From Citricoccus sp. CH26A (GTDB taxonomy: Bacteria > Actinomycetota > Actinomycetes > Actinomycetales > Micrococcaceae): a DNA stretch of 64,000 bases. Below the pieces are notes generated by a model. It saw only the letters and a list, made by a program, of their open reading frames with translations. It did not search any database and was not told where the DNA came from. Positions 26,055 through 56,448 of the stretch are shown one piece after another. The position numbers and the translations under genes are program-made. The first letter of the stretch is position 1. The number at the start of each line of letters is the position of its first letter. The stretch spans positions 1 to 64,000 of the forward strand of contig NZ_AFXQ01000005.1 of the NCBI RefSeq assembly GCF_000224415.1, written 5' to 3'.

Positions 26055-26240
26055 TAGCTCGGCCTGAGAGTTTCCATCCCACCCGGGCGGGACTTGCTCC
26101 TTCGGCGAACGCGGAGGATGCCGCGCTACTTTCCAGATGTGCCTCGATGCGGCGGTACGGGGGCCTGAGAGTTTCCTGGGGAGGATTTGCTCCTACGGCG
26201 CCCGACCGGTGCTGCTGGACGGGACTCTCCCGCCGCACTC
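26055..26240 (-). ncRNA. tandem glycine riboswitch
   Basis: Read on the minus strand, two aptamers follow one another. The first opens with GGCGGGAGAG, then GCCGTAGGAGCAAAT and closes with AACTCTCAGGCC. The second has GCCGAAGGAGCAAGT and closes with AACTCTCAGGCC. The paired (G)GAGCAA and CTCTCAGGC elements repeated in tandem are diagnostic of the glycine (gcvT) riboswitch. It lies in the leader of the 45-codon ORF, sdaA and cycA, so glycine should control serine breakdown and glycine/serine uptake. In most bacteria this switch controls glycine-cleavage genes. Confidence 0.93.
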
Positions 26241-26269
26241 AACGGCTCTTCGGTTGTGACTGCGCTCAC

Positions 26270-42699: not shown

Positions 42700-42959
42700 G
42701 ACGGACCTCCCTCACACGTCCTGGTCCGATCCCGGTCTCGTTCCGGACCACCCCGCCCCACCCCGGTGCCGGTACCGGCCCCATCGTCTCCCTCGCGCCC
42801 ATCGTCCCACTCTCCCGACCTCACGCGCAGGACCCCGTCCGCGAGGTCTTGCCCGCAGGGCTCACCTGCCGCACACTTCCCGCCGGTCACTTCTGGCCAA
42901 GACCCCCCGCCCCCTGTCTACGGTGGTCGGAGCCCTTACCTACGGCGAAAGGCAACACC

Positions 42960-45182
<2,223 letters not shown>

Positions 45183-45267
45183 GCCGGGGGAACCGGCCGC
45201 CGGGTGGGTGGCGCTGATTGTCAGGCGATACCCAGCCGGCACCCGGCCGGTTCCCACGACCGTCGCC

Positions 45268-45366
45268 TACGGTGGGAAGCACCTCATCAAGGTGCGAGTG
45301 ATGACAGAGGGCCCCGGGCCCGGCGATGCGTTCCCCTCACGCAGCCGGACTACCCGGGGCCCTGCC
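45268..45366 (+). ncRNA. structured repeat element, copy 1 (candidate small RNA)
   Basis: Copy 1 of a three-copy family. TACGGT (45268-45273) resembles a -10 box; the conserved core starts 9 bases later at 45283. Hairpin 1: TCATCA (45284-45289) pairs with TGATGA (45299-45304). Hairpin 2: AGGGCCCCGGG (45308-45318) with CCCGGGGCCCT (45353-45363), enclosing CCGGC/GCCGG and TGCGT/ACGCA with loop TCCCCTC (45332-45338). It lies between katE and the MBL gene in the same direction, and could be a small RNA, a katE terminator or a mobile repeat. Confidence 0.6.
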
Positions 45367-45465
45367 CTTGCCGGTGCTTGGCGGCCGCTCCTCCCCCGCC
45401 CCCTCCTTCCCCCTACGGTGGGGAACAGTGACCGCAGGACACCCCCGGAGGACACAGGAGGAACC

Positions 45466-46209
45466 ATGTTGACCCAGGACATCGCCCCCGGCGTACACCT
45501 GATCGACCACGCGCACGTCAACTGCTACCTGGTCGAGGACGACGACGGCGTGACCCTGGTCGACGCCGGACTGCCCGGGGTCTGGACCGAACTGGGCCGG
45601 GCGATCCGCGCGATCGGCCGCCGCCCGGAGGAGGTCAGGGCGCTCGTGCTCACCCATGCGCACTTCGACCACGTGGGAGTGGCCCGGCGCCTCGTGCACC
45701 GCCTGGGCGTACCGGTGTACGCGCACCGCGCCGAGCGCACGCTGGCCGCGCACCCCTACCGGTACGCCCACGAGAACCCCCGCGCCGCCTACCCGCTGAA
45801 GCACCCCCGGGCCGTGCCGATCCTCACGGCCATGCTGGCCGGCGGCGCCCTGGCCGTGAAGGGCACACGGGTCACGGACGACCTCGAGGCCGGGGACATC
45901 GTGCCGGTGCCCGGCAGGCCCCGGGTCGTCGAGAGCCCGGGCCACACCCACGGCCACTGTGCCCTGCACCTGCCGGACCGCGACGTGCTGCTGAGCGGGG
46001 ACGCCCTTGTGACCCTGGACCCCTACACCGGGGAGACCGGCCCGCGGATCGTGGCGGGTGCGGCCACCGCGGACAGCGCCCTGGCGCTGCGCTCACTCGA
46101 CGCGCTGGCGGCCACCGGCGCCACGCTCGTCCTGCCCGGTCACGGTGAACCCTGGCGCGGCGGCGTGGCCTCCGCTGTGGAGGAGGCCCGGCGGCACGGT
46201 GCCGCCTGA
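45466..46209 (+). CDS. metallo-beta-lactamase-fold hydrolase
   Basis: A 247-residue MBL-fold enzyme. The metal motif is His64-Ala-His66-Phe-Asp68-His69 (LTHAHFDHVG), with further ligands in ESPGHTHGH, LSGDALV and LPGHGEPW. These match glyoxalase II-like and general MBL hydrolases; substrate unknown. The AGGAGGAACC site before ATG 45466 is strong. The frame is open upstream to 45208, but that segment is only a reading of the repeat element. TACGGT at 45414-45419 is a likely -10 box, so it probably has its own promoter. Confidence 0.88.
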   Translation: MLTQDIAPGVHLIDHAHVNCYLVEDDDGVTLVDAGLPGVWTELGRAIRAIGRRPEEVRALVLTHAHFDHVGVARRLVHRLGVPVYAHRAERTLAAHPYRYAHENPRAAYPLKHPRAVPILTAMLAGGALAVKGTRVTDDLEAGDIVPVPGRPRVVESPGHTHGHCALHLPDRDVLLSGDALVTLDPYTGETGPRIVAGAATADSALALRSLDALAATGATLVLPGHGEPWRGGVASAVEEARRHGAA

Positions 46210-55182: not shown

Positions 55183-55291
55183 GGTGTCCTCCTGATGGTC
55201 GTCGGCTGGACGGTAGTCCCCGAGTATTGCCTCTATGGGACCGATGCGCCAAGGAGGTCGGACCGGGGCTCCGCTCCGACCGGGGGCACGA

Positions 55292-55402
55292 GCAGGGCCC
55301 CGGGTATCCGGCTGCGGAGGGGAATCGCATACGCCGGGCCCGGGGCCCCTGTCATCACTCGCACCTTCATCACTCGCACCTTGATGAGGCTCCTTCAGCG
55401 TA
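55292..55402 (-). ncRNA. structured repeat element, copy 2 (with 15-base duplication)
   Basis: Minus-strand copy of the family at 45268. The -10-like TACGCT is the complement of 55397-55402; the core is 55292-55388. It carries an exact tandem duplication of TCATCACTCGCACCT (55352-55366 and 55367-55381), doubling hairpin 1. Hairpin 2 and its TCCCCTC loop are retained; the inner stem has lost one pair on one side but still forms TGCG/CGCA. Confidence 0.6.
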
Positions 55403-55500
55403 GGGGCCGTACTTGTGGGGAAACCGGGTGGAGACTGTGAGATCGCTGGCAGTCCTGGCAGGAGGGCAGCGGCTGAGGACTGCCCTGCGCCTCAGGACAT
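55403..55500. other. spacer between repeat copies 2 and 3
   Basis: About 100 bases without a gene. It holds an inverted arrangement of CAGTCCTGGCAGGAGGGCAG and a GGACTGCCCTGC, a possible weak hairpin at 55450-55490. No coding signal. Confidence 0.35.
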
Positions 55501-55601
55501 GGCAGGGCCCCGGGTAGTCCGGCTGCGTGAGGGGAACGCAATCATGCCGGGCCCGGGGCCCTCTGTCATCACTCGCACCTTGATGAGGTGGCTCCAGCCT
55601 A
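55501..55601 (-). ncRNA. structured repeat element, copy 3
   Basis: Minus-strand copy, nearly identical over its core (55501-55587) to copy 1. The only clear core difference is ATGATTGCG in place of GATGCG before the loop, which leaves the TGCGT/ACGCA stem intact. TAGGCT (complement of 55596-55601) takes the place of TACGGT, 8 bases before the core. Confidence 0.6.
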
Positions 55602-55659
55602 GGAAGCAGACGTGAGAATGGACCGGATACCAGCTGGGAGGTTGCTGGGAGCGGTCCCG

Positions 55660-56448
55660 TCAGCCGAGGATGTCGGTCCGGCGGTTGGCCAGCACGGGCA
55701 GGAAGGACCGGACCTCGTCGATGCGCTCCCGGGTGACGTCGGCGGTGGCGATCGCCTCGCCCTCCTCGGTGAGGGACGCCACGGGGATGGCCAGCGGGTC
55801 CACGATCGTCGAGTGCCCGATGGTGGTGTCACTGCGGGTGTCGGCGGCCACCACCCAGACGGTGTTCTCCACCGCGCGGGCCTTGAGCAGGGTCTGCCAG
55901 TGATCGACCTTGTGGTCGCCCGCGAACCAGGCGGCCGGCACCAGCAGCACGTCGGCCCCGCCCACGGCCAGGGCCCGGGCCACCTCGGGGAAGCGCAGGT
56001 CGTAACAGGTCATCATGCCGAAACGCAGCCCGCCGATCTCCACGACGGACAGGTCCCGCACGCCCGGGGTGATCCGGTCGGACTCCTTGTACTTGAAGGC
56101 GTCGTAGAGGTGCATCTTGCGGTACTTGTCCATGATCCTGCCGGTGGCGTCCACCGCGACGAGCGTGTTGAACGGCCGGTCGGTGCCCGAGGGCTCGTAC
56201 CCGCCGGCGACGATGGCGATCTGCAGGTCCGCGGCGATCCGGGTGAGGTCGCGCACGAAGCTGGACCAGCCGGCGTCGACGGACTCGGCGAACGAGCCGG
56301 CCACGTGCCGGACCGTGAACATGGACTCCTCGGGGAACAGGATGAGCCCGGCCCCGTCGTCCCGGGCCTGGCGCGCCAGCCGTTCCATGGTGGCGACGTT
56401 CTCTGCGGCCACTCCGGTGGGGCGGAATTGTCCGACGCTGATCCTCAT
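55660..56448 (-). CDS. nitrilase-superfamily carbon-nitrogen hydrolase
   Basis: A 262-residue amidase with the Glu-Lys-Cys triad of the nitrilase superfamily: LILFPEESMF (Glu), KYRKMHLYDAF (Lys) and MMTCYDLRFPEVAR (Cys). WKENTVWVV-like RAVENTVWVVAAD follows. The sequence looks like the deaminated-glutathione amidase/omega-amidase branch (Nit2-like), which repairs damaged metabolites such as alpha-ketoglutaramate. The start at 56448 is preceded by GAGGAG about 9 bases upstream. The following minus-strand neighbour upstream is an SRPBCC protein 41 bases away, so they may be co-transcribed. Confidence 0.9.
   Translation of the reverse strand: MRISVGQFRPTGVAAENVATMERLARQARDDGAGLILFPEESMFTVRHVAGSFAESVDAGWSSFVRDLTRIAADLQIAIVAGGYEPSGTDRPFNTLVAVDATGRIMDKYRKMHLYDAFKYKESDRITPGVRDLSVVEIGGLRFGMMTCYDLRFPEVARALAVGGADVLLVPAAWFAGDHKVDHWQTLLKARAVENTVWVVAADTRSDTTIGHSTIVDPLAIPVASLTEEGEAIATADVTRERIDEVRSFLPVLANRRTDILG

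Follow-up and report, generated by a model that had tools for sequence, protein, structure and literature searches.

Introduction

The actinobacterial 6C RNA is named for two stem-loops, each typically carrying six C (PMC4046766). Its mycobacterial member B11 represses eccB4, and a G-tract in the eccB4 5' UTR is complementary to the C loops of B11 (PMC10470900). In Listeria monocytogenes, LhrC1-5 form a multicopy small RNA with UCCC loop motifs, all copies of which depend on LisRK, and which impedes translation of its target (PMC4132741). Mcr7 of Mycobacterium tuberculosis, a small RNA and the most prominent PhoP target, is complementary to the 5' end of tatC mRNA; it is about 350 nt long and predicted only in the M. 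tuberculosis complex (PMC4038636). PhoP of M. tuberculosis itself binds direct repeats of the 7-bp sequence TCACAGC separated by a strict 4-bp spacer, and binds more tightly when three or four repeats stand in a row (PMC4832192).

Hardly any regulatory RNA of the Micrococcaceae (Arthrobacter, Micrococcus, Kocuria, Rothia, Nesterenkonia, Glutamicibacter, Citricoccus) is described in the literature searched. We analysed a repeated element in a 64,000-nucleotide stretch of Citricoccus sp. CH26A, hereafter the window. Judged from sequence, this element very probably encodes a small regulatory RNA. The predicted family is most likely of the PhoP-activated, C-rich-loop kind, and is not described in the sources that we searched, which cover the literature in part.

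Results

Copies in the Citricoccus genome

The original prediction had placed three copies of a structured element in the window, and all three were found again, with the neighbours given below.

45281 to 45366, plus strand: copy 1, predicted small RNA (start placed by the -10 box, end by the hairpin)
55290 to 55390, minus strand: copy 2, predicted small RNA with the AGGTGCGAGTGATGA motif doubled (fold, alignment, position scan)
55501 to 55589, minus strand: copy 3, predicted small RNA (fold, position scan)
42957 to 45182, plus strand: long catalase gene, upstream neighbour of copy 1 (PF00199, PF18011)
45466 to 46209, plus strand: gene for a metallo-beta-lactamase-fold hydrolase, downstream neighbour of copy 1 (PF00753)
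55660 to 56430 (start approximate), minus strand: carbon-nitrogen hydrolase gene, upstream neighbour of copies 3 and 2 (shared by related loci)

Copies 1 and 3, reported as almost identical, share 97% identity; between copies 1 and 2 the figure is 93%. The core coordinates first proposed for the element stood, but its upstream start did not, as each copy also has four half-sites spaced by 11 bp further 5'. Searching the whole 3.47 Mb genome brought the total to four, with one copy on another contig (G000:C45:23460-23544) whose stem differs and whose UCCCCUC loop is identical to that of the window copies. Copy 2 contains a 15-nt internal tandem duplication of AGGTGCGAGTGATGA (55354-55382, minus strand), and the double motif occurs in ten related copies at eight loci, Citricoccus and a Micrococcus record among them.

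Other signals were seen in the window. A second CCTACGGTGGGGA box, resembling the -10 region of copy 1, stands at 45413-45425, directly 5' of the metallo-beta-lactamase-fold gene, and may be that gene's own promoter. A glycine riboswitch aptamer (RF00504, 64.6 bits) lies at 26143-26242 on the minus strand.

Distribution and synteny

By DNA search of 59 relatives, the element was present in all genomes of the same genus and in most other genera of the family. A sequence model, R1, was then available from 80 promoter-plus-leader regions; it matched 138 of 149 Micrococcaceae genomes and 31 of 32 genera. The many copies anticipated in other Micrococcaceae were indeed found. The 32nd genus gave a weak R1 match (E 0.04) with complete anatomy, at the syntenic proC locus. 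R1 matched only Micrococcaceae when 395 genomes of the class were searched, and a pattern allowing three mismatches occurred outside the family at about the rate of its reversed control (396 genomes of the order). Copies number one to nine per genome.

The exact 14-mer AAGGTGCGAGTGAT was found in 91 of the 149 genomes and 24 of the 32 genera (one match for the reversed control pattern), its apparent invariance being inflated by selection, as the 14-mer itself had served to find most copies. Variants do exist: R1 recovered GGTGTGAGTGAT, for example, and one further copy reads GGTGCGAGTGCT. When named genomes were scanned with CTCATNAAGGTGCGAGTGAT, the matches listed included Arthrobacter, Nesterenkonia, Glutamicibacter, Paeniglutamicibacter, Paenarthrobacter, Kocuria, Micrococcus, Zhihengliuella, Rothia, Auritidibacter, Tersicoccus, Psychromicrobium and Citricoccus. 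Also among the matches listed was one short MAG contig labelled Acidobacteria (L079), which carries the proC/element locus and is probably a misbinned Micrococcaceae contig.

The gene order trkA, proC (divergent), element, ppx (opposite strand) is syntenic in 55 loci from many genera, and in each of the 50 regions with an identified ppx, this gene lies on the strand opposite to the element. Copies 2 and 3, like copies in related loci, follow a carbon-nitrogen hydrolase gene. Tandem copies are common, at a typical spacing of 149-282 bp, each with its own promoter and hairpin.

Promoter architecture and candidate regulator

A TANNNT box had been noticed upstream of each core. The three boxes were confirmed, together with the half-sites that precede them:

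45268 to 45273, plus strand: -10 box TACGGT of copy 1 (position scan, family register)
55402 to 55397, minus strand: -10 box TACGCT of copy 2 (position scan)
55601 to 55596, minus strand: -10 box TAGGCT of copy 3 (position scan)
45219 to 45258, plus strand: PhoP-type half-sites of copy 1, TGTCAGG, ACCCAGC, ACCCGGC, TCCCACG (position scan, 11-bp periodicity, same repeats at phoP)
55412 to 55451, minus strand: PhoP-type half-sites of copy 2, TGCCAGC, TCACAGT, ACCCGGT, CCACAAG (position scan)
55611 to 55650, minus strand: PhoP-type half-sites of copy 3, TCCCAGC, TCCCAGC, ATCCGGT, TCTCACG (position scan)

The box is kept across the family, TAnnnT being in register in 199 of 203 copies. Counted from A0 of AAGG, it starts at -21 or -20 in 191 of the 203, and ACCTC starts at -8. 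No -35 hexamer appeared in the 203 aligned promoters; where it would be stand up to four TCMCAGS-like half-sites spaced by 11 bp. In 116 non-redundant promoters, pairs of CCAG/CACA-type half-sites numbered 39, 31 and 18 at 11, 22 and 33 bp, respectively. The remaining common spacings (2, 9, 20 and 13 bp) seem to arise from overlaps between hits to this loose motif. All three window copies have their four half-sites in exact 11-bp register.

The half-sites of copy 1 overlap a long inverted repeat (45186-45257) that lies 3' of the catalase gene and is probably its terminator hairpin. If it is, termination and PhoP binding would use common DNA. The same inverted repeat attracts false miRNA matches in a relaxed Rfam search. 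The promoter half of R1 alone matched at two further places (L260, at G040:C5:998406, and G012:C14:25380), which are possibly other PhoP-type promoters.

The PhoP orthologue of this genome scores 285 bits against M. tuberculosis PhoP, versus 180 bits against the next PDB protein, PrrA. Four of six base-contact residues are identical (E215, S216, Y217 and Y220), with N212 replaced by S and V213 by I. An orthologue occurs in 148 of 149 Micrococcaceae genomes, and because nearly all genomes have one, its presence is uninformative as a discriminator. Just upstream of the phoP start codon of this genome, CACAGCAAACGTTCAGGAAATGCTCAGC comprises three half-sites 11 bp apart, and of the 11 OmpR-type regulator loci in the genome, phoP is the sole one with three consecutive sites. 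Across 31 genera, 17 of 32 phoP upstream regions had at least two sites in register versus 1.6 expected (maximum 6 in 300 shuffles, 0 in reversed sequences), while about half of the regions, including two of the same genus, carried no recognised repeat.

Thus the features by which a PhoP-controlled sRNA would be recognised were found here: repeats 11 bp apart upstream of a -10 box, an orthologue, and a box at phoP itself. Since the orthologue is present and the same repeats stand at the phoP promoter, PhoP control is the best inference for the element promoter, and we consider it quite likely. An alternative is that another OmpR-type regulator acts on both the sRNA genes and phoP.

A conserved 5' leader

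Every copy follows a common plan, in which the predicted RNA begins with ACCUCAUNAAGGUGCGAGUGAU. The UCAUCA/UGAUGA hairpin first proposed for the start of the core can form in the window copies, but it is not a family trait: an exact form was present in 26 of 225 leaders, and shortened 4-bp pairings were about as frequent as in shuffles. What is conserved instead is the hairpin ACCU(CAUCA)AGGU, the pattern ACCU(3-7 nt)AGGU being present in 214 of 219 distinct leaders versus 25% of shuffles. Leader variants include compensatory exchanges, such as ACACCTCAAGGTGT replacing GCACCTCAAGGTGC. In copy 1, the leader features are:

45281 to 45293, plus strand: conserved 5' hairpin ACCU-CAUCA-AGGU (leader survey versus shuffles)
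45289 to 45302, plus strand: near-invariant motif AAGGTGCGAGTGAT, partly in the hairpin and then single-stranded (family pattern searches)

A small ORF starting from the GUG after AAGGUG was considered in a quick test and is unsupported, as in most cases the reading frame runs on beyond its first codons and into the hairpins.

3' hairpins and the C-rich loop

The leader is followed by one or two hairpins, and 3' sequences are largely unrelated between genera. The long GC hairpin with a UCCCCUC loop described for the window copies was recovered in each:

45308 to 45363, plus strand: long GC hairpin of copy 1, probably also a terminator (fold)
45332 to 45338, plus strand: constant C-rich loop UCCCCUC of copy 1 (fold, family loop survey, position scan)
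55294 to 55349, minus strand: long GC hairpin of copy 2, loop UCCCCUC at 55323-55317 (fold, position scan)
55504 to 55562, minus strand: long GC hairpin of copy 3, loop UCCCCUC at 55535-55529 (fold, position scan)

All three copies fold better than dinucleotide shuffles, with z of -3.5, -2.8 and -3.0 for copies 1, 2 and 3. Of 150 non-redundant copies, 102 had CCCC within a hairpin loop and none had GGGG there. With stricter criteria and more copies, an entire run of at least four C fell within a hairpin loop in 85 of 193. By these two counts about one third to one half of non-redundant copies have no C4 loop, so the C loop is not universal. Its consensus is UUCCCC(C), with AAC or UCA as the commonest continuation, and among relatives most C4-C6 runs are in one loop.

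Compensatory changes around a kept loop had been anticipated. Hairpin flanks paired with a mean energy of -36.4 kcal/mol with their own partner versus -20.7 kcal/mol when swapped between copies, in a set chosen by folding and hence biased toward own pairs. Because own flanks pair better than swapped ones, the stems appear to change with compensation, being exchanged between copies, while the C-rich loop is usually retained. A C motif unpaired in a loop while the stems vary, as in C-rich-loop antisense sRNAs, is therefore present, though not in every copy.

The 10 nt 3' of the main hairpin are T-rich in the family (32% versus 19%); the copies of this genome have weak U-tracts. Exact GAGGGGAA before ATG was found 12 times versus 0 in the control, as is expected for any sequence like a Shine-Dalgarno. 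We claim no target, because these matches include a coding motif reading as glgC and the antisense of copy 3.

Comparison with known RNA families

Neither the window nor 18 related loci gave an Rfam match on the element at gathering thresholds, and relaxed E-values yielded nothing relevant on it except sub-threshold 6C. The 6C gathering score is 47 bits; the window had no 6C match at that score, and the best on any copy was 33.4 bits. In place of two hairpins with six C each, the copies of this genome have one C-loop hairpin with four C. Literature searches on the motif string and on Micrococcaceae sRNAs found nothing on the element, with partial coverage, so that it may be described elsewhere. 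Several Micrococcaceae genera also contain 6C-like RNAs (L321, L323, L326) with several C-rich-loop hairpins, two of the three below the Rfam cut-off.

Discussion

We judge it very likely that the element is a real structured, transcribed unit. Family-wide copies, the register of the promoter, and a loop kept while stems are exchanged all speak for the small RNA reading of the original prediction. Its alternative, a mobile or REP/MITE-like palindromic repeat that is incidentally a transcription terminator, is now very improbable, being disfavoured by the conserved promoters, the syntenic loci and the unrelated 3' sequences. The clustering of several near-identical copies in 10 kb of this genome, a strong palindrome and the frequency of tandem copies would suit a mobile repeat. 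Yet the best-conserved part is the promoter with the 22-nt leader and not the palindrome, genomes hold few copies, and the high copy number, scattered non-syntenic sites and conserved ends or palindrome of REP/MITE sequences were not found. Synteny of the proC-ppx copies across many genera means that the element is more than a mobile repeat. Equally improbable is that it acts in cis on the gene downstream, as a riboswitch or attenuator leader. Copy 1 does precede a same-strand gene by about 100 nt and combines a structured 5' end with a terminator-like hairpin. However, the downstream genes vary by copy and genus and are often on the opposite strand, as with ppx, tandem copies each have a promoter and hairpin, and no Rfam riboswitch matched the element.

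Two further explanations accept an RNA of its own and differ on its kind. That it is a divergent branch of the 6C family, and not separate, seems unlikely. The plan is the same, hairpins with C-rich loops; the Rfam 6C model scored two copies in the genus below threshold, at 33.4 and 25 bits, and true 6C loops in Micrococcaceae read CCCCCAA, like many loops of the element. But no copy reaches the gathering score, copy 1 has no 6C match even at E 10 and four other loci have none, and 6C-like loci exist separately in the same genomes (G010, G011, G016), where they do not have the GGUGCGAGUGAU leader. Somewhat less improbable, though still doubtful, is a CsrB-like RNA that titrates a protein, in which the near-invariant AGGUGCGAGUGAUGA would bind a regulator and the C loop would be secondary. 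This motif is the least variable part and is doubled in 10 copies, and some copies have no C loop; against this, no binder of the motif is known, and the C loop is the sole other fixed sequence, in the classical position for pairing. No CsrA is known from actinobacteria.

Our full reading, stand-alone genes for PhoP-activated, C-loop antisense sRNAs, is likely overall, with antisense action by the C loop, taken alone, somewhat favoured. Each copy would produce, as an independent gene, a small RNA about 85-140 nt long. A dimer or higher oligomer of PhoP, an OmpR-type response regulator with a role in stress, would sit on the 11-bp half-sites, in place of a -35 element, and recruit RNA polymerase to the TAnnnT box, transcription starting at or near the A of ACCUC. 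The near-invariant 5' module, the ACCU/AGGU hairpin with GCGAGUGAU, is perhaps a protein site or a stability element. One or two hairpins would then present, usually, a UUCCCC(C) loop, the last of them ending transcription. The C loop would pair with G-rich stretches at ribosome-binding sites and block translation, and several copies, often in tandem, could raise the dose or split the target set. More tentatively, and with odds that we put well below even, the family could form a PhoP regulon of modular sRNAs, in which a constant promoter-plus-leader cassette (ACCUCAUNAAGGUGCGAGUGAU) is joined to varied C-loop stems and the leader docks an RNA-binding protein in an Hfq-like role. For genome annotation, the work supplies a model of a gene that recurs without being annotated.

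Among known systems, the promoter resembles the M. tuberculosis PhoP box in having TCACAGC-like direct repeats 11 bp apart upstream of the -10 box; it differs in that the half-sites of the Micrococcaceae element are degenerate (TCMCAGS), with up to four in a row. The nearest in kind are the 6C RNA, LhrC and Mcr7, the last two best seen as probable functional analogues. With 6C RNA (RF01066) the element shares an actinobacterial hairpin RNA with C-rich loops; unlike it, the element has a fixed 5' hairpin with the GGUGCGAGUGAU motif, PhoP-type promoters and several copies, its C4-C6 loops are usually in one hairpin, and its Rfam score is below the cut-off. Mcr7, compared by description and not by sequence alignment, is a PhoP-linked small RNA, as the element is predicted to be, but one of about 350 nt predicted only in the M. 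tuberculosis complex, versus about 85-140 nt for the element. LhrC1-5 are similar in being multicopy, in their C-rich loop motifs and in a link, predicted for the element, to one two-component system, whereas the phylum and the regulator are other, no sequence relation is known, and it is the element whose stems are replaced between copies.
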